Source: an uncultured bacterium (lineage in GTDB: Bacteria; Cyanobacteriota; Vampirovibrionia; Gastranaerophilales; Gastranaerophilaceae). Taken from it: 35,339 nucleotides of DNA. Positions 3,124 through 30,094 of the stretch are shown in pieces. A program made the translations under genes and the position numbers. How positions within the stretch are numbered: position 1 is the first letter of the stretch; each line of letters begins with the position of its first letter. Location of the stretch: NCBI GenBank assembly GCA_946636615.1, contig CAMPBE010000013.1, positions 1-35,339 on the forward strand. The letters are read 5' to 3'. The notes under the pieces are model-generated. The model was not told where the DNA came from. It saw nothing but the letters and a program-made list of their open reading frames with translations, and searched no databases.

Positions 3124-6100
3124 ATGGAAACATTACATGCACATGGTAAAAAAACTGTAGATTTCATTAACAAGCAAATGGACAAAAAAGGTTTGAACAA
3201 TTTGCTTGCTCAAATGTATCTGGAGTTTGGCGGAGCAAAAACCGCAGAATTGGCTAACAGCCTAAAAAACCTTGGCTACAGATATGCAACCAAATCCGGT
3301 ACAACTATTTCTATCGCTGATTTGCAAGTTCCTGAAGCTAAGAAAGAAATGTTGAAAGATGCTGAAAAAGAAATTGAAAAATCAACAAACAGATATTTAA
3401 AAGGTGAAATTACCGAAGTTGAAAGATACACAAAAGTTATTGACACTTGGTCTGAAACGACAGCTAAACTGACAGCATCGGTTGTTGAAAATTTTGACAG
3501 ATTGAACCCTGTATATATGATGGCATTCTCTGGTGCGAGAGGTAACTTATCTCAGGTATCACAGTTGGTTGGTATGAGAGGTTTGATGGCTGATGCGCAA
3601 GGTCAAATTATCGACTTGCCGATTAAGTCAAACTTTAAAGAAGGCTTATCCGTTACAGAATACATCATTTCATCTTATGGTGCAAGAAAAGGGTTAGTAG
3701 ATACAGCATTAAAAACAGCAGACTCTGGTTATTTAACAAGACGTTTGGTTGACGTTGCTCAAGATGTTATTATTCGTGCTGATGATTGTCATACTGATAA
3801 ATATATCAATATGAAACCTATTACAGACGGTGATAATGTTATTGTTCCGTTGATTGACAGATTATTAGGCAGAACTATTGCTGAAGATATTAAAGATACT
3901 GATGGTACGGTTCTTGTCTCTGCAGGAACTACAATGAACAGAAGCGATGTCAAAAAAGTTGCACACTTGAACTTACAAGAATTAAAAGTTCGTTCAGGTT
4001 TGACTTGCGGACTTGAATACGGTATTTGCCAAAAATGTTACGGTTGGGCAATGACAACTCAAAAACTTGTTGATATCGGTGAAGCTATCGGTATTATTGC
4101 TGCTCAGTCAATCGGTGAACCTGGTACTCAGTTGACAATGAGAACATTCCACACAGGCGGTGCGGTTGGCGTTAAAGATGCAATAAAAGAAGTTATTGCA
4201 AATATTGACGGTGAAGTTGTTTCTACAGTAAAAACAAGAGAATTGAGAACACGTCACGGTGATGTTGTTAATATTTCAAATTACGAAACTGATATTGAGA
4301 TTAAAGGTGCTAAGAAAACTGAGAAATATCATATTCCTGCGGGTTCTACAGTATTCTTTACTAACGGTATGAAAGTTAAAAAAGGCTTTAAATTAGCTCA
4401 ATACGAACCTGCATCTCAAGGGTCTTCTTCTCGTTTGACTGAAAAAGCTACAAAGGATATTACATCTGATTTGTCAGGTGAAGTATTATTTGAAGATTTT
4501 GTTGCAGATGAAAAGAAAGACAGACAAGGCAACATTTCAAGAACAACAAATAAACAAGGTATTATTTGGGTTCTTGGTGGTGATGTATACAACCTTCCTG
4601 GCGGTTCAAAAGTTCTTGTTAAAGATGGTCAAAAAGTTAAAGAAGGTGAAAAACTTGCAGAAACATTGACTATCTGCGAACATGGCGGTGAAGTCCGTTT
4701 TGGTGAAGATTTAGCTATTGAAGATGTTAAATTTGAGGGTAAAAATATTAAGAAGATTGTTCAAGGTAAAGAATTGACAATTGTTATTGCTTCTTTGCAG
4801 CCCGAAAATGCTTCATTTGAACAAACTAAGAAAGAACAAATCTGGACAGTTAATAAAACAGGTGAAAAATATATTGTTAAGGCTCCTGTAGATACTACAG
4901 TTGAAAACGGTATGATTATTGCCGAACTTGTCGATGATGAATGTGCAGTTACATCTTCAGGTGAAATCAGATATGTTGATGTTGAGGTTGATGAAAATCA
5001 AATTATTACAAAACCGGGTAAAGTTGTATTTATTCCGGAAGAAGTTCATCAAATCAACAAAGATTCAACTTTAAAAATGGTAGATAACGGAACAAAAGTT
5101 ACTGCCGGAACTGAGGTTGTAAAGGATATATACTGTCATATTGACGGTATTGTTGAATTTAAAGAATACAATGATGTAATTCACGAAATTACGATTCGTC
5201 CGGGAGAAATTCATTCGTTACCGAGCGTTTCTGAATTAAAAGTAGACGAGGGTGAAGTTGTCAAGAAGGGTACTATAATTGCTGATGGTATAAAAGCTAA
5301 AGAAACTTCTATCGTTACAATTATGGATTCATCAATGGATGATTTGGATATTGATGATTTGGATGAAGAATTAGATGGCGGTTTGTCATTAGATGAAGAT
5401 TCTATTTCAAATCAACCAATTCAAATCCTTGTAAGACCTGTTCAAGTATTGGATGTTGAACAAAAGAATGTTTCAATTAAATTTAATACTTCAGACAGCT
5501 TGATTGATATTGTGCCTGTTACTCAGTTGCAATATAAAGATGGTGCAAGGGTTAGAAATCTTGATGGCTCAACAATTACAAGAACAAGTTTAGTTCTTCA
5601 AATGCAAGGTTATCTGTCACACTTAAAAGGTATGGTTGAATTGGATAGCAAGAATGCTTTGAGGATAGTTGTTCTTGAAAACTTAATTGTTCGTCGTGAA
5701 TTTGAAGGCAATTCTAAATTGATGTCTTCTTTGCAAACTGAATTATTAGTAAAAGACGGTCAAACAATTGATCCAAAGACACCTGTTGCAAAAACTCAGG
5801 TTTTGGCAATTAACGATGGTGTTGCATCTATAAAGAGTGATGATGAAGATGCAAGAAGATTATTGTTAACAAGTTCTACTTATGAAACTGTAGTTCCTAT
5901 AAAAGGAAAAGCAAAAGTTAAAAAAGGAGAATTTGTAAGACTTGATTCAGTGTTAGCTGATAGTGACGAAAAATCAACAGTATCAGGTATGGTAACAGCT
6001 GTTAATAAAGGTGAAATTACAATTAGAAACGGTCGTCCATACTTGATTAGTCCGGGTACTATGTTGCAGGTTGATGCCGGAGCATTGGTTCTACGTGGTG

Positions 6101-6978
6101 ATAACATTGCGACTTTGGTATTTGAAAGACAAAAAACAGGCGATATCGTTCAAGGTCTTCCGAGGGTTGAAGAACTTCTTGAAGGTCGTAAACCAAAGGA
6201 CTGCGCTATCTTAGCCGAAGAAGACGGTGTTGCTGAAATTGTTACAGATGAAGATTTACCGAGACTTTATCTTGTAAATGATAATGGCAGAACTGAAATC
6301 AAATACGCAATTGATGCTAATATCATTGTTCAAAACAATCAAAAGATTACAAAAGGTCAGCCTTTAACAAGCGGTCCTTTGAATCCACATGATATTATCA
6401 GACTTTGCGGACCTGAAGCAGCTCAACAATACCTTGTGGATGAGGTACAAAGAGTATATCGTTCTCAAGGTGTAGAAATTGCTGATAAACACGTTGAAAT
6501 CATCGTAAGACAAATGACTAAAAAAGTTAAAATTGTTGATGCTGGTGATACAACATTGTTACCTGGCGAACTTGTTGAAATGCAAACATTCGAAAAAGAA
6601 AACAAAGAAGCTGAAGAAAAAGGTGTAGCTCCTGCAACTTGTGAGTACATGTTGTTAGGTATCACAAAAGCTTCTTTGAATACAGAATCATTTATTTCAG
6701 CAGCGTCATTCCAGGAAACAACAAGAATTCTTACAGAAGCTGCAGTTGACGGTAAGAAAGACTTGTTAAGAGGCTTGAAAGAAAACGTAATTATTGGTCG
6801 TTTGATTCCTGCCGGAACAGGTTTCCATCACTTGTCAAATGCAAATGAAGAAAAGGAAAGAGAAGAAAGAAAACGCGCAGTTGCTCAAAGAAATCAAGCT
6901 CGTAAACCATCTGCAATTTTGGAAGAAATTGAAGGTATGTTTGGAGCTCCTGATTTTCAATTAGGCGATGAAGAATAA
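3124..6978 (+). CDS. rpoC2: RNA polymerase beta-prime, C-terminal subunit with large SI3 insertion
   Basis: RpoC2 completes beta-prime. Family segments in order are: FGGAKTAELANSLKNLGYRYAT near the N-terminus; ARGNLSQVSQLVGMRGLM at about 137-154; a second zinc site with a Cys near 222 and the TCGLEYGICQKCYGW cluster near 293-307; the trigger-loop MRTFHTGG near 339; and, much later, GLPRVEELLEGRKPKD near 1010. The roughly 640 residues between the last two are the trigger-loop insertion (SI3). It is built from repeated small beta domains (for example NLPGGSKVLVKDGQKVKEGE) and is characteristic of the cyanobacterial phylum. A very acidic stretch (MDDLDIDDLDEELDGG) sits near 735-750 inside it. 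The start has AAGGAAAATATAA upstream, and a strong terminator follows the stop. Confidence 0.96.
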   Translation: METLHAHGKKTVDFINKQMDKKGLNNLLAQMYLEFGGAKTAELANSLKNLGYRYATKSGTTISIADLQVPEAKKEMLKDAEKEIEKSTNRYLKGEITEVERYTKVIDTWSETTAKLTASVVENFDRLNPVYMMAFSGARGNLSQVSQLVGMRGLMADAQGQIIDLPIKSNFKEGLSVTEYIISSYGARKGLVDTALKTADSGYLTRRLVDVAQDVIIRADDCHTDKYINMKPITDGDNVIVPLIDRLLGRTIAEDIKDTDGTVLVSAGTTMNRSDVKKVAHLNLQELKVRSGLTCGLEYGICQKCYGWAMTTQKLVDIGEAIGIIAAQSIGEPGTQLTMRTFHTGGAVGVKDAIKEVIANIDGEVVSTVKTRELRTRHGDVVNISNYETDIEIKGAKKTEKYHIPAGSTVFFTNGMKVKKGFKLAQYEPASQGSSSRLTEKATKDITSDLSGEVLFEDFVADEKKDRQGNISRTTNKQGIIWVLGGDVYNLPGGSKVLVKDGQKVKEGEKLAETLTICEHGGEVRFGEDLAIEDVKFEGKNIKKIVQGKELTIVIASLQPENASFEQTKKEQIWTVNKTGEKYIVKAPVDTTVENGMIIAELVDDECAVTSSGEIRYVDVEVDENQIITKPGKVVFIPEEVHQINKDSTLKMVDNGTKVTAGTEVVKDIYCHIDGIVEFKEYNDVIHEITIRPGEIHSLPSVSELKVDEGEVVKKGTIIADGIKAKETSIVTIMDSSMDDLDIDDLDEELDGGLSLDEDSISNQPIQILVRPVQVLDVEQKNVSIKFNTSDSLIDIVPVTQLQYKDGARVRNLDGSTITRTSLVLQMQGYLSHLKGMVELDSKNALRIVVLENLIVRREFEGNSKLMSSLQTELLVKDGQTIDPKTPVAKTQVLAINDGVASIKSDDEDARRLLLTSSTYETVVPIKGKAKVKKGEFVRLDSVLADSDEKSTVSGMVTAVNKGEITIRNGRPYLISPGTMLQVDAGALVLRGDNIATLVFERQKTGDIVQGLPRVEELLEGRKPKDCAILAEEDGVAEIVTDEDLPRLYLVNDNGRTEIKYAIDANIIVQNNQKITKGQPLTSGPLNPHDIIRLCGPEAAQQYLVDEVQRVYRSQGVEIADKHVEIIVRQMTKKVKIVDAGDTTLLPGELVEMQTFEKENKEAEEKGVAPATCEYMLLGITKASLNTESFISAASFQETTRILTEAAVDGKKDLLRGLKENVIIGRLIPAGTGFHHLSNANEEKEREERKRAVAQRNQARKPSAILEEIEGMFGAPDFQLGDEE

Positions 6979-7105: not shown

Positions 7106-7270
7106 TTAGATTAAATGTAATGCCTGTTTATTTGCCATTGCAATAAAACTCATCTGCTCTAGCAACATTTCCGAACGGTCTTCATATGGTTGATTATTAT
7201 TTACTGTAACCTGATTGTCGTAAATATTTTTCAATTTGTCGTCAATTTTTGTCAAATTTGCAACAGCCAT
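7106..7270 (-). CDS. Small protein of 54 aa, function unknown
   Basis: A short reverse-strand frame encodes a 54-residue protein beginning MAVANLTKIDDKLKN and ending MANKQALHLI. Three things support it as a gene: a good ribosome binding site (AGAGAGGTTCAA before ATG), codon use like the neighbours, and its own intrinsic terminator 43 bases past the stop. It has no signal peptide or membrane segment and looks like a short soluble, mostly helical protein rich in Asn, Gln and Lys. It is transcribed divergently from the 724-aa membrane protein gene; the shared 158-base gap contains a perfect HLR1-type operator. I do not recognise the family. Confidence 0.7.
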   Translation of the reverse strand: MAVANLTKIDDKLKNIYDNQVTVNNNQPYEDRSEMLLEQMSFIAMANKQALHLI

Positions 7271-7352
7271 TTGAACCTCTCTTCTTATTAGTTATCTCTT
7301 ATGTATATATAAAGTATATACAAATTTTTAAATTTCACTTTTTAAATATCTT

Positions 7353-7370
7353 GTTACATTTCTTTACAAT
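7353..7370 (+). promoter_or_regulatory. HLR1-type operator (RpaB-like response regulator site)
   Basis: GTTACATT-TC-TTTACAAT is a perfect match to the cyanobacterial HLR1 consensus: two direct KTTACAWW repeats two bases apart, bound by the OmpR-family regulator RpaB. It lies 58 bases before the ATG at 7429 and 82 bases before the divergent small gene. That RpaB or a homologue binds it here is inference. Confidence 0.55.
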
Positions 7371-7428
7371 GTTTTTTAAAAGTCAATTTATTAGAACGAA
7401 ATGTTTTTATATTTATATAGGGGAAACT

Positions 7429-9603
7429 ATGCTCGACAATAATGTCAACAAAAATCAGCAACAAATAGCTTATCAAGCAATGCAATCTGGAATGCCTGAT
7501 CAAAATTCGGTTCCAATGGAGGCTGGCATTCAAGCTAATCCGGAATTACTTAAGGAAGAAATTCAGGATACTTATGTTGCAAATAGAGTGTCATCAACAA
7601 CAGATGACCCTAAAGCAATGCTTTATACGGCAGGAATAGCTGTTCCTACTTGGTTTGCAATTTCTCAAGGAATGGATGTTTATGCAAAACATTCTCGTGG
7701 TGATTATGAAAAAACTGTTCATGGGAAAATAGGACAATTTGGGGACAGAGTTTCAAACTATATTTCTAACAGTTCTTTTGGAAAATCAAGTTTTGCTAAT
7801 TATTTAAGAAATACATATTCATCATTTAAAGGTTTTATAAAAAATAAAGTAGTTGCTAATTCTCGTATTTTAAAAGCATTTGCTTATACTCCTTCTAAAC
7901 CGGAACTTGATATGGTTAAAGGCCAAGCTGAGGGTGGGGTTGGTTTTGTTGGTTTTGATTGTCATCAGCACAATGAAGAATTTGTAAAGCCTTTGAAAGA
8001 TATTAAAAATCTGGGCTGCTATGGTGGTACTTCTGCAGATATAAGTAAATATGAAACTTTATTAAAAAATGCAACAACTAATGAAGCAAAAATGGAAATT
8101 ATGCAGAATGCAGAATTCGAAATTCTAAGAAAAAATCAAGTTAATAATCCGGGTCTTATATCTTTAGATGAGTTTAAAGCTTTATCAAATGAAGCTAAAA
8201 CAAAGCTTTTGCAAGACATAAAAGCAAGAGAATGGGGATATAGAGATTTTTCACATTTAGAACAAGTCGGAAAGAATATGTCAGACCATCTTGATGATGT
8301 TATAAGAGCTGCCAAAAAAGCAAATCCAAAGATGTATGCTTTGATGACCGGTGTGGCAGGCGGTATAAAACATAAATTGTTTGGTCGTGATGTTTATGCT
8401 TCTGAAACATTAAATAAAATGGCAGCATTTGCAGGTGATACAAATAATCCAAAAATTCGACAAGCTCTTATTGATGCCGGTATGGATAAAAAAGTTGCAA
8501 AAACGGCTTTAGGTAAGTGGCTGACAAAATATACAAATTTGCTTATGGAAGGCGCTACAAACAGAGTTGCAGGAGGTAAACTTGTGGCAATTGCGCAGGC
8601 TGCATATTTGGCTGATGTAATTTATAAGTCAGCAAAGGCTGAAGGTGGCATAGGTGAAAAGGCTAAATCATTTGCTGAAAGATTTACAGAAATGGTTGCT
8701 TTCTTCGTTTGTATGCCGCTGGCAATTCAATTAATGCACAAAATTGGTGGTTTGCAGTATGCGGGTATGACTCCTGAACAAGTTGCAAAATATAGAGAAC
8801 ACTTAAAGATTCATAATGAAAGAGCAATGAAAGGTGGATTTTTAAGTAAGGATGCTTGGAAAGCAAGCCGTGATAATTTGAGAAATGAATTAAAAGCAGG
8901 AGTTAAAAATCCATTTACTAATCTTTGTAAGCGAATTGGCAGGATTGTGTCTGTCGGCTTAGAACAGATTAGACCTTATGATGCAAAAGATATTGCTGAT
9001 GTTGCAAAAGACGGAACTAAGACTTATAGAAGTGGTATTATGAGTAAAGTTAGAGATTTATTCAGACATCCTAAGTTTGGCTTGAAGCAAATGGCAGGTT
9101 ATCCTATGAGAATAGCTTTGGGTATGTTTATTTTGCTTCCAATGTTTAATAAAATAGCAGTAAAAGGCTCGCATTTGATATTTGGCAAACCTAAAAATTC
9201 TGTTCTTGATGAAGGAAAAGAAGAAGACAAGCAAGTACAAAGTCAGACTCAAATTCCTCCTCAACTGTTAAATCCAAATCAACAAGTTCAGCAAACATCT
9301 AAGACAACTCAGGCTGTTCAGCATAATTATGCTCAAAATAATGGTCAGGACAAAAGCCAAACAAACTTGTTGAACAAATATAAGAACCCTCAAGGTTATC
9401 ATAATACACAAACTACAACAACAACTTCGACAACGACTGTAAATCAAGCTAATACAGAGTCTCAGGAACCTGTAAGAACTTATGTTCCATCTCCGGTTGG
9501 TGTTGTATTGAATGGCAAGGAAGATTTATCGGCTGCTGATGCTGCTATGAAAAGGGCTGATTTTGCTGAACAGCAAGCGCTGCAAGCATTAAAAATGAAT
9601 TAA
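7429..9603 (+). CDS. Large membrane-associated protein, function unknown (724 aa)
   Basis: I do not recognise this protein. I place the start at ATG 7429, behind TATAGGGGAAACT. The frame stays open further upstream, but that would pass through the promoter and operator. The N-terminus is Gln/Asn-rich. Hydrophobic segments lie near 64-80, 422-442 and 555-577, so it is probably anchored at the membrane; the regions between are charged and helical. Residues about 600-685 form a low-complexity Gln/Thr/Asn-rich stretch with a run of threonines. The last 45 residues return to ordinary composition (VPSPVGVVLNGKED...). The architecture suggests a surface or envelope-associated protein specific to the lineage, but no enzymatic motif is visible. 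The next gene, 57 bases on, is another membrane protein and may be co-transcribed. Confidence 0.85.
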   Translation: MLDNNVNKNQQQIAYQAMQSGMPDQNSVPMEAGIQANPELLKEEIQDTYVANRVSSTTDDPKAMLYTAGIAVPTWFAISQGMDVYAKHSRGDYEKTVHGKIGQFGDRVSNYISNSSFGKSSFANYLRNTYSSFKGFIKNKVVANSRILKAFAYTPSKPELDMVKGQAEGGVGFVGFDCHQHNEEFVKPLKDIKNLGCYGGTSADISKYETLLKNATTNEAKMEIMQNAEFEILRKNQVNNPGLISLDEFKALSNEAKTKLLQDIKAREWGYRDFSHLEQVGKNMSDHLDDVIRAAKKANPKMYALMTGVAGGIKHKLFGRDVYASETLNKMAAFAGDTNNPKIRQALIDAGMDKKVAKTALGKWLTKYTNLLMEGATNRVAGGKLVAIAQAAYLADVIYKSAKAEGGIGEKAKSFAERFTEMVAFFVCMPLAIQLMHKIGGLQYAGMTPEQVAKYREHLKIHNERAMKGGFLSKDAWKASRDNLRNELKAGVKNPFTNLCKRIGRIVSVGLEQIRPYDAKDIADVAKDGTKTYRSGIMSKVRDLFRHPKFGLKQMAGYPMRIALGMFILLPMFNKIAVKGSHLIFGKPKNSVLDEGKEEDKQVQSQTQIPPQLLNPNQQVQQTSKTTQAVQHNYAQNNGQDKSQTNLLNKYKNPQGYHNTQTTTTTSTTTVNQANTESQEPVRTYVPSPVGVVLNGKEDLSAADAAMKRADFAEQQALQALKMN

Positions 9604-16969: not shown

Positions 16970-17554
16970 ATGAAATTATGTATATTTGCAGGAACATTTA
17001 ATCCTATTCATAATGCGCATATAGGTATGGCTGAATATGTGCTGGATAAGTTAAATTTTGATAAAATTATTTTTATTCCGGCTTACAAACCACCCCATAA
17101 AGATTATGATATTTCATATTCACAACACAGATATAATATGGTAAAATTGGCTATATCAGAAAATAAAAACTTTGATATTTCGGACATTGAATTTAATAGA
17201 GAAAGCAAATCCTATACGTATATTACTATACAAGAATTGTATAAGAAATATGATGTAGAAGGTAAAATTAATTTTATAATTGGTACTGATGCATTTAAAA
17301 ATATTGAATCTTGGTATGAAGCTGATAAACTTAAAGAATTGCTTGAATTTATTGTATTTATGAGGCAAGATGAAAAAGTTGATTTTACAAATCTTACAAA
17401 AAAAGGATATAAATATAGATTTGCAAATATGGATTTTGTTGATATCTCATCAACAGAGGTTAGGAATAAAATTAAGTTTAATGAAGATGTTTCCGATTTA
17501 ATTCCGGTGAGTATAAAGGGATATATTGAAGAAAATGGACTATATAAAAATTAA
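16970..17554 (+). CDS. nadD: Nicotinate-nucleotide adenylyltransferase
   Basis: NadD joins nicotinate mononucleotide and ATP to give deamido-NAD, the penultimate step of NAD synthesis. The nucleotidyltransferase signature GTFNPIHNAH is at 8-17, GTDAF...ESWYEAD lies near 105-119, and the adenine-binding ISSTEVR is at 159-165. Length is normal (194 aa). The usual GGSFDPIH appears as AGTFNPIH, a mild variant. There is no Shine-Dalgarno sequence; the ATG follows an extended -10 box by six bases, so a leaderless message is likely. yqeK starts inside its last codons, the common nadD-yqeK pairing of Gram-positive bacteria and relatives. Confidence 0.95.
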   Translation: MKLCIFAGTFNPIHNAHIGMAEYVLDKLNFDKIIFIPAYKPPHKDYDISYSQHRYNMVKLAISENKNFDISDIEFNRESKSYTYITIQELYKKYDVEGKINFIIGTDAFKNIESWYEADKLKELLEFIVFMRQDEKVDFTNLTKKGYKYRFANMDFVDISSTEVRNKIKFNEDVSDLIPVSIKGYIEENGLYKN

Positions 17555-18110
17555 AAAATGGTTAAAAGAAAATTTAAATGACGAAAGGTATATTCATACT
17601 CTAGGTACTGCAGATTGTGCGAGGGAATTGGCGCACAAGTATGGCTTAGACGAGGAAAAAGCATATCTTGCAGGATTGTTGCATGACTGTGCAAAGTGCT
17701 TTTCTACTGAAAAATTGTTGCAAATAATACATGATAATTTGGATGTTGAAGAATCCGAAATGCAAAATTATAAAACTTTGCATGCTCCTGTAAGTGCGTA
17801 TATTGCGGAAAAAGAGTTTGGGGTTAAAGACACTGAAATATTATCAGCTATTAGATGGCACACTCTGGGTAAGCTTGATATGTCTGATTTTGAAAAAATT
17901 ATTTTTATAGCAGATAAAATTGAACCAAATACAAGAGATCCAGAATATTCGTCAAAAATCAGAGAATTGATGGTTGAAGATAATGGGTTGAATAAGGCGC
18001 TTTTGAGGCTTTATAAGGAAACTATAAAAAGTTTGTGCAAAAGAAATTTAAAAATTTGTCTTTTGACAATAGAAATTTACAATAAACTTCAAGATTTAGT
18101 ACAAAATTAG
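17535..18110 (+). CDS. yqeK: HD-domain hydrolase YqeK (symmetrical Ap4A hydrolase family)
   Basis: YqeK proteins are metal-dependent HD hydrolases; characterised members cleave diadenosine tetraphosphate into two ADP. The metal ligands are visible: His21, the HD pair at 50-51 (LLHDCAK), His83, His109 and Asp127 (IADKIEPNTRD). The family signature WHTLGKLDMSDFEKIIFIADKIEP is intact. I choose ATG 17535, nine bases inside the longest frame, giving 191 aa and a 20-base overlap with nadD with GAAG just upstream. The overlap implies translational coupling with NadD. Confidence 0.93.
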   Translation: MDYIKIKKWLKENLNDERYIHTLGTADCARELAHKYGLDEEKAYLAGLLHDCAKCFSTEKLLQIIHDNLDVEESEMQNYKTLHAPVSAYIAEKEFGVKDTEILSAIRWHTLGKLDMSDFEKIIFIADKIEPNTRDPEYSSKIRELMVEDNGLNKALLRLYKETIKSLCKRNLKICLLTIEIYNKLQDLVQN

Positions 18111-18152: not shown

Positions 18153-20252
18153 ATGAACGTTTTGGAAATTAAGAACAATTTATTAAAAATATCATATGAT
18201 GTAGCAGATAATTTATCGCTCTCCGGGTTTGTGATTATTGAGGATTCAAACAGTCCATATGTTGGGCAGGTTATGAATTTGAAATCTGAAGGAGATTCAA
18301 ATTATGCAATTGTAAAATTGTTATTTACATTTAATGATGAGGGTATTTTAAAAAATTACAATGGAACAATTCCGTCAACAAATGCGACAATATCAAAACT
18401 TCCAGCTAATGAACTTTTAGATGTTATTCCTAAAGATGATCCTCTGTTTATTGGTAAGATTGCTCAGCAAGATATTCCTTTAAATGTAGATAAATCAATT
18501 TTGGATAATAATTTGTTGATTTGTTCTGATAATTTGGAAAATACGTCTGAATTGGTGAAAAATTTATCTAAACAAATTGAGGAGAAGATTGTCATAATTG
18601 ATCCTGACGGTCAATTTAATTATTCTGACAAATTTGTTCCGGGTGTTGATTTTAAAATTCCTTTAAACGTAAGCGCAATTGATTTTATTTATGAAAATGA
18701 GCTTAACGATGTTGATCCTGTAAACAAGGCTGTAATTCAAGATATTTTAATTGAAGTTCAAAATTATATTAAAACATTGCCTGAAAAATTTCTTCCTTTT
18801 GATACTTTTGTTAATGTTGTTGACTCGCAGTATCAAGAAACAAAGATTCCGGAATTAATTTTGTTAAAAAACAAGCTTTTAAAATATAAAGACATGAATG
18901 TTTTTGCTCAAGATTTGAAAGAATCATTAGGCTTTAGTATTCTTGTTGAACAAGAAGATGTTTCTGTTCTCGATTTGTCTGTAGCTGACGCAAGTTTTCA
19001 GAAAGAAATTATTAAGTACATTTATTCTGTATTGAACAATATTAATGATTCTATATATGTTTTTGTGAAGGTTAATAATGACAACATAACAAAAAGTTTG
19101 TTGAAAAAATACTTAGCAAAAGATAATGTCAGAACTATAGTTATTTGTCCTCATGAGTTAAAATACATAGAAGAAGCAAAAGAGGCTTCTCAAAACGTAA
19201 TTTTCTTTGCGCCTTTGTCTGTTTCTCATGATTTTGCAAGCTATAATACTTACTTGAACAAGTTAAATAGCGACGAGTTTGTTATTTATGGTGCTCATAC
19301 TCAAAATATTCCATTGATTGTAGAAGTAACTGAATATTCTGATGAAGTTGCAAATTATGTTCCAAATGAAAAAAATACTGATGATGATGGCGTTGAAGAT
19401 GAACACGATGAAGCAACAGCTATTTCTGATATGTCAGAATCTGACAATATATTTGCGCAACAAGATGTTGGTGAAAATAATGAGTCTGATGAAAATTCAG
19501 CGGAAGCGTATGATGAATTGTTGGCTGAGGATGCGCTTGCTCAAGAAAATGTTATAGTAGAAGATCCTGTTGATGTTAATGATTTGCAGGATGAAAATGT
19601 TGTAGAATCTGATAATGATGACAATTTCGGTTTCGCAAATGAAATTCAGCCTGTTGACAATATATTAATTTCCGAGGATGAAGAGCCTTTAGCAGAACCT
19701 CTTGAGGTGAATGATAACTATAACTCTGATACTGTTATAACAGAGCTCCCTTCAGACACACAAAATGATGATAGTATGCTTGATTCAATATCGCTTGAAT
19801 CTCAAGATGATGTGGTTGAGCAAGTAGCAAAAGATGTTGACAGAGCTTTATATGAAAAATTACCGGAAGATGATGGTGATTTTATTTCTTCTGATGCAAA
19901 TATTGTTGATGGTGATGATTTGACAGAAGACGATTTGAACATTATTGACGATTTGTCTTCTGAAGACATTACTCTTGTTGGTGGTGATGAGAATGATGTT
20001 AATTCTATTGATATAGTTTCAGAAGAAGAAGTGCCTCCGGTAGTTCCGATATATCAAGCAGACGACATTGAGGAAAAGGATGGACTAACATTTAAACCCG
20101 GTGAAAAAGTTTCTACAGCAAAATATGGCGAAGGTGTTGTTGAAAAAATGATAAAATATGGTAATAAAATGTTATGCTCAATAGATTTCCCAAATATAGG
20201 CAGAAGGCTTTTAGATCCTGCAATCACTGAAATAACAAGAATTAATGAATAA
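18153..20252 (+). CDS. HerA/FtsK-like protein with degenerate P-loop, acidic linker and C-terminal Tudor-like domain
   Basis: I propose three parts. Residues 1 to about 390 resemble HerA-type DNA-translocase ATPases: a HAS-barrel-like start (SGFVIIEDSNSPYVGQVMNL, 24-43), LFIGKIAQQDIPLNVDKSILDNNLLI (98-123), a Walker B-like IVIIDPDGQFNY (146-157), and an ending like HerA (FVIYGAHTQNIPLIVEV). Where the P-loop should be (about 121-138) the sequence is LLICSDNLENTSELVKNL, with no glycine or lysine, so ATP binding is probably lost. Residues about 400-640 are extremely rich in Asp and Glu. The last 55 residues (FKPGEKVSTAKYGEGVVEKM...) resemble the C-terminal Tudor-like domain of UvrD/PcrA helicases. 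The start is supported by GTGAGGAAG. It follows yqeK by 42 bases; a weak TAAAAT box lies between. Confidence 0.6.
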   Translation: MNVLEIKNNLLKISYDVADNLSLSGFVIIEDSNSPYVGQVMNLKSEGDSNYAIVKLLFTFNDEGILKNYNGTIPSTNATISKLPANELLDVIPKDDPLFIGKIAQQDIPLNVDKSILDNNLLICSDNLENTSELVKNLSKQIEEKIVIIDPDGQFNYSDKFVPGVDFKIPLNVSAIDFIYENELNDVDPVNKAVIQDILIEVQNYIKTLPEKFLPFDTFVNVVDSQYQETKIPELILLKNKLLKYKDMNVFAQDLKESLGFSILVEQEDVSVLDLSVADASFQKEIIKYIYSVLNNINDSIYVFVKVNNDNITKSLLKKYLAKDNVRTIVICPHELKYIEEAKEASQNVIFFAPLSVSHDFASYNTYLNKLNSDEFVIYGAHTQNIPLIVEVTEYSDEVANYVPNEKNTDDDGVEDEHDEATAISDMSESDNIFAQQDVGENNESDENSAEAYDELLAEDALAQENVIVEDPVDVNDLQDENVVESDNDDNFGFANEIQPVDNILISEDEEPLAEPLEVNDNYNSDTVITELPSDTQNDDSMLDSISLESQDDVVEQVAKDVDRALYEKLPEDDGDFISSDANIVDGDDLTEDDLNIIDDLSSEDITLVGGDENDVNSIDIVSEEEVPPVVPIYQADDIEEKDGLTFKPGEKVSTAKYGEGVVEKMIKYGNKMLCSIDFPNIGRRLLDPAITEITRINE

Positions 20253-26844: not shown

Positions 26845-27152
26845 TGATTGTAATTTTATGTACTACAAATAGCATTGAAAGTGCTAAAAATATTGCTAAT
26901 ACTTTAATAAAAGGTTGTAATGCTGCGTGCGTTAATATCGTTCCAAGAGTTGTTTCTATATACAAATGGAATGATAAAATAATAACGGATGAAGAATATT
27001 TGCTTATTATTAAAACTAAGAAGAAATTGTTTAGTATTGTTGAAGAAAAAATAAAGCAAATTCACCCTTATGAAACTCCTGAAATTATTTCATTTAATAT
27101 TAAGAATGGTTCTAGGGAATATTTAGATTTTATTATTAACAGTTGTAATTAG
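26844..27152 (+). CDS. cutA: CutA1-family protein
   Basis: This is a small trimeric protein related in fold to PII signalling proteins, named for divalent-cation tolerance; its molecular role remains unclear in most bacteria. Visible family features are ILCTTNSIESAKNIANTLI, AACVNIVPRVVSIYKWNDKI and IIKTKKKLF, then HPYETPEIISF. At 102 aa it is normal. I choose ATG 26844, which overlaps the preceding TAA by one base; the longer frame would start inside the prepilin gene. Translation is probably coupled to the prepilins. Its TAG overlaps the convergent protease-like gene's TAA in TTAG. Confidence 0.93.
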   Translation: MIVILCTTNSIESAKNIANTLIKGCNAACVNIVPRVVSIYKWNDKIITDEEYLLIIKTKKKLFSIVEEKIKQIHPYETPEIISFNIKNGSREYLDFIINSCN

Positions 27153-30094
27153 CTTCTTTTTTCTACAGCTATTCCTTTTTTTGTTGCTTCTATTATTCTT
27201 AGAATAACATCATCACATTCTTTTAGTTCTTTTTGTTTTTCGGGTGGTTGTTTTTGTTTCCATTCGTTCAGTGCTTTTCTGAATTCATCACCATCAATGA
27301 TGCATTCTCCCGTACCAACACGCGAAGCATATTTTTCTGTAAATTCTTTGTTAAAATCTTCGTAAACTTCTGTTATTAAGTCGGATGTGATTTTTGCGTT
27401 GTTAAGTATAACTCGTTGATCTTCTTCAATAGTTTGTTTCATTTTGTCTGATAGTATATCAACATCGTATGCAGCCATTTTTCCTGTTTTTGCACCCATA
27501 CCCATAATGTTTACCATCGTTTCAGCTTCCTCTCTTGCAGATTCCATGTCTGCGGTAATACCCCATGAGCCATCGATGTCATAGAATCTGCTTTCTGCAG
27601 AATTGCCGCCAAAGCTGCAAACAATATCTGTAAATGCAAACTCAAAAGACCTTTCGGTATTGGTATCCATTCCGTGGTAAACTGCGCCGCCGTATATTCC
27701 TCTTGGATCTAAAGTTACAAAATTTACTTTTTGAGGTATGTGCCAAGGCTTTTGTTTGGTTTTTGCAAGGTTATTCATTACTTCTAAATTTGTTGCGTGA
27801 CCGCATTCATGTGATGCAACAATCTGTTTTTTGTGTGATTCCAGCTTGTCGATTGCAGGTCGGCCTGTTGTTAGCTGAAGATATGCTTCTGTGAGGTCTG
27901 CTTTATTTAAACTTTTGTTTCCTCGCTCAGATGCTACAGCTTTAGCTTTTTTAGCTAAATTTTGTAGATAAATGTAAGGGAAACCTGTTGTAATTTCTGA
28001 AGCATATTTTAAAATATTTTCTTTGTCAGGACCAGAAATTTTCAAATGTTGATCTTTGAATGCTTGTTCCAATATTTCAGCTCTTTCTTTTTTGTTATAA
28101 GCAGGTGATGAAACTTCTATTTTATCGACAAATTTAAATGATTTCATAGCTGCTTCCCCAATCAAGCTGGGGTCAGATACAGAACCTATAACGAGTATGT
28201 TTAGTCCTGCATTTTGTGCTTTATCCATTTCTCTTAATAGTTGAGCCATGGCTTTTTGATGATAATTTGATACCATTTCTCCAACAGAAAAGTATTCAAA
28301 GTTCTCAATAAACAATACTACAGATTTATTTGGGTTGGCTTCAGCCTGAGTTGTGACAAGAGAAAATAATTTCTTCATTGACTGTTCGGGAGATAAACCT
28401 GAACCAAAAAGATCAACGTCTTTTGTTCCAAAGTCCATTGTGTTAACTTCTACATACGGAACTTTTGCATCTCCTGCTATTGCTTTTGCCGTATATTTTC
28501 TTCCTCCTCCGGGTGTTCCGTCTTGAGAATATATTATTATCCCCTTTGTTCCCAATTTTTTAGATTTAATTTGTTTTACAAGGAATTCAGCTTCTTTTTT
28601 TGTTGAAGTTTTTCCTTTTAAATCTCGTATGTGTTTTTTTGTGTCATATATTACTTCTATAGAATTGTCTTCATTAGACTTCTTTAAAAGAGAGGTTGCT
28701 TCTTTCAGGTAGTTGTTAACATCAGTTTCGGATATTTCTTTTTTGTTGATGTTGTAGCTTGCAATTTTTTTCATTAGATCAATAGTTTTGGCAGGAAAAA
28801 CTCCGTCAAGCTGTGCTGATGCAAATGCTGCTTTTTCAATTGCAGCTTTTGAAAATGGAATTTTTACATCTTTTTTCATTATATGAGGGTTCTCTTTGAA
28901 AAATTTAACCATTTGTTCAGAATTCATTCCCGGTAATGACGTCTCTTGAAAATCGTTATATATTCCAACATTCATAAATGAATAATAGTTGTTTTTTGTG
29001 TCATAGAATAAGAATTTTACGTTTGCAGGTTTGTCTTTAACTCCATAGATAAGTTCTGCAGATATTGCAACTTGTGTTGCTCCATTACTTGTTTTGTCAT
29101 CTCCTGCAAGTTTTAAAAAGATTGAAGAAGGGTCTGCAGCAATAATATATTCATGCTCTTTGTCTTTTTTTGCTTTATTGATTGTATCGACTAGGTATTC
29201 AGCATTTGCGTACTGATTTAGCTCAATATACTTTAATTTCTTATTGTCACTTTTATCTATATGTCTTTTTAATGTATCTAAAAATAAATTTGGGTTTTCT
29301 TTGGCATAGTCATAAGTGATAAACATATCTGTTCCTAAAGACAGATTTTTCAGTACATTTTTTGCTTTGTCGTCATAAAATGAGAATGGGAAAAATTCAT
29401 CAGGTTCTTTTTCGTTTCTCATAACTTTATCGTTTATATCATCCATAAATTTATCTAAAAATTTAACCAGATTGTCATTAGAATCATCGCTTGCTGTTGC
29501 GCCAAGGACAGTTGATGGGGTTATTGTTTCGTTTTCTTTTGTTCTGTAACTCCAAATATAATCGATTAATTCATTTGATAACTTTGATTCTTTTGATTTG
29601 TCAAAATCTTCCGGTTTATTTTTGTCTAAAATTTCCATAGAATTTTTTACATAGTTTTCAATTACCGGTTTTACTTTTTTTCTTATGTCTTTATCTGAAA
29701 AAATAGAATAAGTTACGCTATCTCCAATCAAACTAACCATTTCCGGAGCTTTGTCCGATTTATAATCTTTAATTCCATTATCAAGATCGTTCATATATTT
29801 ATAAGTTTCATTAATTCCGTCATAGACAACATGCATAGGTGTTACGGTGTTATATTCTGTTTCTTTTGAAATATCAAATAAGTGATTAAATAATGCCTTG
29901 CAAGAGGAATCTGCATACATCATTATGTTTTCCAATTTCTTATCATTACTGCTTTTTTTGCTGTTTCCGCCTGAAAATGTAACAGTATCTAAAGGAACTG
30001 TTTGAAAACTTCTATTTGTTGTTTTATTAAAGTTATTTTTGTTGTTTGATTTATAGCTGTTAAATGCAGGAATAACGCTAATTTTTGTTATCAT
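27149..30094 (-). CDS. Clp-N / degenerate AAA / M41 peptidase chimera (FtsH-related)
   Basis: Four regions can be read. (1) Two Clp N-domain-like repeats, about 60-95 (LFNHLFDISKETEYNTVTPMHVV) and 172-205 (LSNELIDYIWSYRTKENETITPSTVL). (2) Residues 250-465 end like the ClpB first AAA module (AIEKAAFASAQLDGVFPAKTIDLMKKIASY) but show no P-loop. (3) An FtsH-like AAA module about 510-745: Walker A is GTPGGGRKYTAKAIAG (526-541), where FtsH has GPPGTGKT, and Walker B is VLFIENFEYF (593-602), where FIDE is expected. (4) An M41 peptidase with HECGH at 762-766 and a candidate third zinc ligand Asp849. No N-terminal membrane helices are seen, unlike FtsH. The zinc-ligand motif looks intact; ATP hydrolysis looks impaired. 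GGAGAAAAGTAT supports the start. Confidence 0.8.
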   Translation of the reverse strand: MITKISVIPAFNSYKSNNKNNFNKTTNRSFQTVPLDTVTFSGGNSKKSSNDKKLENIMMYADSSCKALFNHLFDISKETEYNTVTPMHVVYDGINETYKYMNDLDNGIKDYKSDKAPEMVSLIGDSVTYSIFSDKDIRKKVKPVIENYVKNSMEILDKNKPEDFDKSKESKLSNELIDYIWSYRTKENETITPSTVLGATASDDSNDNLVKFLDKFMDDINDKVMRNEKEPDEFFPFSFYDDKAKNVLKNLSLGTDMFITYDYAKENPNLFLDTLKRHIDKSDNKKLKYIELNQYANAEYLVDTINKAKKDKEHEYIIAADPSSIFLKLAGDDKTSNGATQVAISAELIYGVKDKPANVKFLFYDTKNNYYSFMNVGIYNDFQETSLPGMNSEQMVKFFKENPHIMKKDVKIPFSKAAIEKAAFASAQLDGVFPAKTIDLMKKIASYNINKKEISETDVNNYLKEATSLLKKSNEDNSIEVIYDTKKHIRDLKGKTSTKKEAEFLVKQIKSKKLGTKGIIIYSQDGTPGGGRKYTAKAIAGDAKVPYVEVNTMDFGTKDVDLFGSGLSPEQSMKKLFSLVTTQAEANPNKSVVLFIENFEYFSVGEMVSNYHQKAMAQLLREMDKAQNAGLNILVIGSVSDPSLIGEAAMKSFKFVDKIEVSSPAYNKKERAEILEQAFKDQHLKISGPDKENILKYASEITTGFPYIYLQNLAKKAKAVASERGNKSLNKADLTEAYLQLTTGRPAIDKLESHKKQIVASHECGHATNLEVMNNLAKTKQKPWHIPQKVNFVTLDPRGIYGGAVYHGMDTNTERSFEFAFTDIVCSFGGNSAESRFYDIDGSWGITADMESAREEAETMVNIMGMGAKTGKMAAYDVDILSDKMKQTIEEDQRVILNNAKITSDLITEVYEDFNKEFTEKYASRVGTGECIIDGDEFRKALNEWKQKQPPEKQKELKECDDVILRIIEATKKGIAVEKRS

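Follow-up and report, generated by a model that had tools for sequence, protein, structure and literature searches.

Members of the order Gastranaerophilales (Melainabacteria), poorly studied bacteria that live in animal guts among other places, possess a HerA descendant that has no working ATP site and bears a long acidic linker and a UvrD/PcrA-type Tudor barrel at its C-terminus. The gene is single-copy and fixed in the order. HerA proteins are ATP-driven DNA pumps; the protein described here most likely serves as a passive platform rather than a motor. One of these genes (henceforth pseudo-HerA) was found in the window, i.e., the whole stretch of 35,339 nucleotides that was analyzed, as an open reading frame that starts with ATG and encodes 699 amino acid residues (Table 1). 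The window protein matched no Pfam or NCBIfam model above its cut-off, the best being a sub-threshold Tudor match, and homologues were therefore needed to prove the domain assignments.

Table 1. Features of the pseudo-HerA gene and its surroundings (positions are those of the window unless a locus is given).
Feature	Position	Strand	Basis
Whole pseudo-HerA gene, with acidic linker and Tudor tail	18153..20252	+	ORF; homologue in 39/39 relatives
HAS-like beta barrel, N-terminal, ~residues 1-103	18153..18461	+	model strands 2-103; HerA structures align from residue 1
RecA-like HerA core, ~residues 104-398	18462..19346	+	predicted structure, Foldseek, VIA-align, hhalign
Decayed Walker A position, residues 125-132	18525..18548	+	hhalign: SDNLENTS against GKSGTGKS of intact HerA; column counts
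D-P-D-G motif, retained, residues 150-153	18600..18611	+	D150 in 80/80 aligned rows
Decayed Walker B position, ~residues 303-308	19059..19076	+	hhalign and column counts, against hhhhDE
Acidic linker, mostly low-confidence, residues 396-640	19338..20072	+	structure model, composition; motif LTEDDLNII at ~residues 593-601
P-I-Y motif, residues 632-634, immediately ahead of the Tudor domain	20046..20054	+	
UvrD/PcrA-type Tudor barrel, residues 645-699; GRRLLDP = 683-689	20085..20249	+	Pfam in relatives, model, profile
nadD and yqeK-like HD-domain genes, directly upstream	16970..18110	+	gene order conserved in the window's family
Gene Y copies	L024:940-1425; L027:988-1446; L028:3877-4329; L099:2960-3412; L136:577-1035		
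comM-adjacent loci	L030, L024, L028, L098, L099, L133, L135, L136		

It is virtually certain that residues 1-400 adopt the HerA fold, in agreement with the earlier note, which had placed the first ~390 residues on the HerA plan. AlphaFold2 modeled this region from 56 aligned sequences with a pLDDT of 88.9 and a pTM of 0.85, and all of the 50 matches listed in the Foldseek search with the model were HerA entries or HerA complexes (a few of the 50 have no title beyond 'bacterial protein' or 'anti-phage defense complex'), with a best E-value of 3.8e-16 and 9.1e-16 for Sulfolobus HerA (4d2i_B). When the model was overlaid on the latter structure by VIA-align, 377 of the 400 residues were aligned with a Z-score of 26.3 and an rmsd of 3.6, while the Z-scores of other folds were lower, namely VirB4 (20.8), the C-domain of DndH (19.3), and FtsK (14); a fold unrelated to HerA was not seen. 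PF01935 did not match the window protein; nine orthologues, all from divergent members of other families, passed its cut-off of 23.2 bits, including L024 (33.8 bits, an E-value of 4.7e-8), and the best E-value among them was 2.9e-10. The comparison of alignment A3 with 22 HerA-type sequences (21 of which carry a P-loop by pattern) by hhalign gave a probability of 93.6 and an E-value of 2.1e-7 over 386 columns, spanning residues 2-398. This probability varies with the sequence placed first in the set (79 for L131, 89 for L141, and 93.6 for L160), and an earlier comparison with just two HerA sequences was weak (a probability of 58). With the fold, profile, and orthologue evidence in agreement, a chance resemblance to HerA was ruled out.

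The absence of GxGK from the P-loop position, noticed earlier in the window protein, extends to its relatives, and no homologue with a clear P-loop was found among those examined. The pattern [AG]....GK[S/T] was absent from the first 450 residues in all of the 97 rows surveyed, which were from two overlapping retrievals of related genes (69 and 28), so that the distinct genes are fewer than 97; a bare GK[S/T] occurred in five of these rows, each time away from the P-loop columns. A frameshifted or misread P-loop was ruled out by the same survey, together with the open frames of the relatives. We then counted residues by column in 80 aligned rows, comprising 65 of the window's family (the window included) and 15 from other families (among which L098, L099, and G035 are mutually close; the truncated L094 was excluded), and GK[S/T] was found at the P-loop columns in none of them. 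Both groups have lost the P-loop glycines with the exception of one G at the first position. At the column of the Walker A Lys, the window's family has T (54), S (7), or I (4), and neither K nor R in any of the 65 rows, while 13 of the 15 rows from other families have K (11) or R (2), the rest being N (1) and L (1). Likewise, D is missing at the column of the Walker B Asp from all rows of the window's family (K 42, Q 7, P 5, S 4, T 3, A 2, R 1, and E 1), while in the other families this column is occupied by D (7), N (4), E (2), A (1), and C (1). The Walker B acidic pair faces residues ~306-307 (KV) of the window protein in a register set by eye, and the catalytic Glu of the hhhhDE motif is absent from this protein. 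The decay is thus graded, the other families of the order representing an intermediate stage and the window's family being further gone. With decay at Walker A, at Walker B, and at the catalytic acid, neither ATP hydrolysis nor DNA pumping is expected, and catalysis has very probably been lost.

The values of dN/dS were 0.02-0.09 in the close pairs for which they were computable (saturation affected several pairs, and dS was above 1 in many cases), pointing to strong purifying selection, and no internal stops were present among the matches listed; a decaying pseudogene was ruled out on these grounds. As the low dN/dS values coincide with the loss of the ATPase motifs, strong selection acts on the fold even though the chemistry is gone. 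The Lys or Arg at the Walker A position makes weak nucleotide binding possible in the relatives, and the protein could accordingly be pictured as a nucleotide-binding switch, of which the fold would bind ATP or some other ligand in the absence of a classical P-loop, with signalling through the Tudor arm. The retention of D150 in every one of the 80 rows and of G153 in 72 of them is consistent with such a switch, as are the 13 basic residues at the Walker A column, but the P-loop glycines are lost and the window's family retains neither the Walker A Lys nor the Walker B Asp. We regard the switch as quite improbable.

All of the 39 relatives possess a homologue, 24 of them belonging to the window's genus (its own genome included) and 15 to other families of the order. 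In the class-wide search, 190 of the 289 genomes matched, with one match each, and the matching genomes listed were all of the window's genus, family, or order. Among 20 listed out of the 99 genomes with no match, three were of the same family and 17 were of the class outside the order. No match to the pseudo-HerA gene was found in phage and plasmid records, and PADLOC gave no match either; a defence system was ruled out.

The order is almost devoid of NurA and intact HerA. The co-occurrence survey proposed in the earlier note detected intact HerA in two and NurA in one of 60 genomes of the order, the latter as a weak match, and the window's own genome has no match to PF01935 and no NurA. PF01935 was above the cut-off in 11 of the 60 genomes, among which only G035 and G025 hold HerA with a P-loop and DEAH. 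These two genomes carry, besides their own pseudo-HerA, a HerA-like gene in which both GNTGSGKS and DEAH are intact (L131 and L132) and which was perhaps acquired later. Elsewhere in the phylum, intact HerA was found in 56 of 117 genomes at an E-value of 1e-10, two of which, G049 and G055, belong to the same class.

The pseudo-HerA gene begins ~40 bases past the yqeK-like HD-domain gene, with nadD likewise on the same strand, and aroH-like, fmt, and def genes lie downstream on the opposite strand. Among the 65 loci of the window's family (L032-L096), 63 have both nadD and yqeK directly upstream and two are interrupted by a contig end; neither gene was found beside pseudo-HerA in four loci of other families (L097-L100). 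We dismissed this neighbourhood as functional evidence since it does not recur in the latter. A different setting was seen in the other families. Gene Y, which encodes 151-162 amino acid residues with a conserved IWKGVTKHLGP, was found in six of the 39 relatives, and all six copies are directly beside pseudo-HerA on the same strand. Gene Y matched no known family in Pfam, NCBIfam, or PDB, and the search of viral contigs returned no useful match. In three of these other families, comM/yifB, encoding a Mg-chelatase-like AAA+ protein, stands divergently beside pseudo-HerA or gene Y (identified by Pfam in L024 and L030, and by a shared start sequence in the other loci). The setting with comM and gene Y weakly suggests a DNA-recombination context for the ancestral form. 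It is also what would be expected if the dead HerA helped to assemble a different motor or to load it onto DNA, as a regulatory subunit in a hetero-complex with gene Y or ComM, since an AAA+ ATPase gene is next door in three families and every gene Y copy found adjoins pseudo-HerA. Nevertheless, gene Y was found in none of the 24 genomes of the window's genus, where the neighbours are nadD and yqeK, so that it is not needed everywhere, and we consider the hetero-complex unlikely.

Several other features of the window were recorded. The end of rpoB is at 3-1175, followed by two genes for a split RNA polymerase beta-prime of the RpoC1/RpoC2 type (1230-2939 and 3124-6978), as in Cyanobacteria. 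An ORF of 784 amino acid residues after rpoC2 (7249-9603) had no Pfam match at an E-value of 0.001, and the minus strand encodes an AAA and peptidase M41 protein of 981 residues (27149-30094), which exceeds the length typical of FtsH. Rfam and tRNA scans of the window gave nothing useful.

Residues 396-640 contain 82 D/E out of 245 (33%) and just four K/R, matching the Asp/Glu-rich stretch of ~240 residues described from the sequence alone, and the median D/E content of the linker is 34% over 66 relatives. In the full-length model (44 sequences), pLDDT is below 50 at residues 405-550, 568-591, 601-627, and 629-643, with weak helices at 552-567 and 594-600. A short motif, [FLI][ST][DE]2-3 L..[FILMV], was found in 53 of the 63 linkers of the window's family and in seven of 12 others, i.e., 60 of 75 proteins, compared with a mean of 0.8 of 75 in shuffled linkers; the 60 of 75 is descriptive, as this loosened pattern was written after a stricter one had matched six of the 75 (none of the 63 in the window's family). 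Ahead of the Tudor domain, P-[VIE]-Y is conserved in 62 of the 63 linkers of the window's family and in ten of the 12 others; G307 and G031, both among the 12, are truncated by the end of the locus. The linkers of family f3 (L139, L135, L136, L133, and L099) contain repeated motifs, EFSDDDLxxFMDYDE and FQDESxLDY, which look like binding peptides.

The Tudor tail proposed in the earlier note is borne out by the relatives and the model. PF21196 (PcrA_UvrD_tudor) matched the window protein below its cut-off of 23.9 bits (15.6 bits, an E-value of 0.014) and exceeded the cut-off in three relatives, L028 (29.4 bits), L025 (25.2 bits), and L100 (25.1 bits). A profile of 31 tails retrieved solved UvrD tail structures (9dqs, 9.4e-7; 7egs, 1.6e-5; 6yi2, 2.4e-5), and the tail was modeled as a five-stranded barrel with a pLDDT of ~91. 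Of 75 rows, 73 have RR or KR at the basic pair R684/R685, and the remaining two are truncated by the end of their locus. The window's own genome encodes a separate UvrD-type helicase with a Tudor of its own, of which the tail reads GIKAMDA in contrast to the conserved GRRLLDP of pseudo-HerA; the partner of the latter Tudor may therefore differ. We know of no earlier example of a UvrD/PcrA Tudor outside a helicase anchoring such a scaffold.

According to PMC8318588, the Tudor of PcrA binds RpoB SI1 and UvrB by gripping a beta-hairpin that carries [VIL]-D-x-x-T-G-E-[VIL]-[VILT], the helicase interaction motif, and K727 of PcrA is critical. R684 and R685 are candidates for the K727 position, the exact register being tentative. 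The two known partners were searched for this motif. Neither the motif nor the SI1 hairpin was found in any of 25 RpoB sequences of the order (five of the 30 genomes gave no RpoB match); GRYK.NKKL runs straight into DIDHL and the SI1 insert is missing. The known PcrA-type link to RNA polymerase is thus not supported in this order, and the earlier idea of a polymerase-associated protein is weakened. If the Tudor nonetheless bound RNA polymerase, either as in PcrA/UvrD or on the beta lobe like the RID domains of CarD and Mfd, the dead HerA would ride with transcription. Such a polymerase scaffold would fit the UvrD/PcrA-type tail and the weak matches to CarD_TRCF_RID in relatives (at best an E-value of 0.0017 and 18.8 bits, against a cut-off of 23.0). 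An N-terminal RpoB hairpin, NRDTGEIKEQ, which lies near the docking place of Mfd and CarD, is kept in 15 of the 25 RpoB rows. On the other hand, NRDTGEIK is in another part of RpoB than SI1 and deviates from the published motif at two positions, the D and the last one, and the ten RpoBs with no TGE at that hairpin make up the entire set from the window's family. Altogether, we find the polymerase scaffold doubtful, keeping open a CarD/Mfd-like docking through this hairpin outside the window's family.

The strict motif was found in ten of 23 UvrB sequences, including that of the window's own genome (IDNVTGEII), and a relaxed form, [ILV][DN]..TGE[VI], counted by eye, in 15; the set consists of sequences of UvrB length, with seven loci of Mfd length left out. 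The remaining eight have neither form although the Tudor is conserved, so that UvrB is not an obligatory partner everywhere. We treat a UvrB-type partner for the Tudor as a tentative suggestion, somewhat more doubtful than not.

From these observations, we propose that the HerA-derived domain would act as a platform, perhaps still an oligomeric ring able to sit on DNA, from which the flexible acidic arm of ~245 residues would extend. The terminal Tudor would grip a beta-hairpin motif on a DNA-repair partner, most plausibly UvrB or some other carrier of the helicase interaction motif rather than the usual RpoB insert, and repair factors may thereby be tethered or concentrated, or UvrD competed off them. 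The earlier note favoured a scaffold over a motor: the decayed Walker motifs uphold the latter half of that statement, while the scaffold is an inference. A role as a scaffold or tether appears reasonably likely, and the scaffold reading as a whole, with the partner left open, comes close to an even chance without reaching it. A bolder version, in which an ATP-free HerA ring would serve as a passive clamp or hub on DNA, keeping repair factors on its acidic arm via the Tudor and replacing HerA-NurA altogether, is rather unlikely.

The open literature yielded no description of a HerA pseudo-ATPase with a Tudor, an absence that is unproven as the subscription literature is mostly outside this search. 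The present analysis adds to the earlier note the proof of the fold, the order-wide fixation, and the graded decay with its intermediate stage, as well as the near absence of HerA-NurA and the evidence against the standard docking site on RNA polymerase. An order-wide, single-copy, and strongly selected HerA descendant with no working ATP site, of which the relatives show an intermediate step of decay, makes it possible to ask, in a naturally occurring example, what role is left to a motor fold after its motor activity has been lost.

Pseudo-HerA shares with Sulfolobus HerA (4d2i; PF01935) the whole fold, comprising the barrel and the RecA-like core, the D-x-x-G motif, and the C-terminal strand. 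In contrast to the translocase, the window protein has no Walker A, Walker B Asp, or catalytic Glu, its genome has no NurA, and an acidic arm and a Tudor have been added. HerA and FtsK domains are treated in the setting of defence systems in PMC10853773 and PMC12839542. The SIR2-HerA and HerA-DUF4297 defence complexes likewise have the HerA fold, but pseudo-HerA has no adjacent effector gene, is not detected by PADLOC, and is order-wide rather than patchy. A degenerate ATPase domain, with the ATPase fold kept though the site is broken, is reported for EccC5 in PMC11154593; that domain belongs to a multi-ATPase secretion protein, while pseudo-HerA is stand-alone with a Tudor arm. Finally, the C-terminal Tudor of UvrD/PcrA (PF21196; 9dqs and 7egs) and that of pseudo-HerA are both small five-stranded barrels, probably with one or more basic residues near the partner-docking strand in each, yet the latter sits on a dead HerA domain instead of an SF1 helicase.
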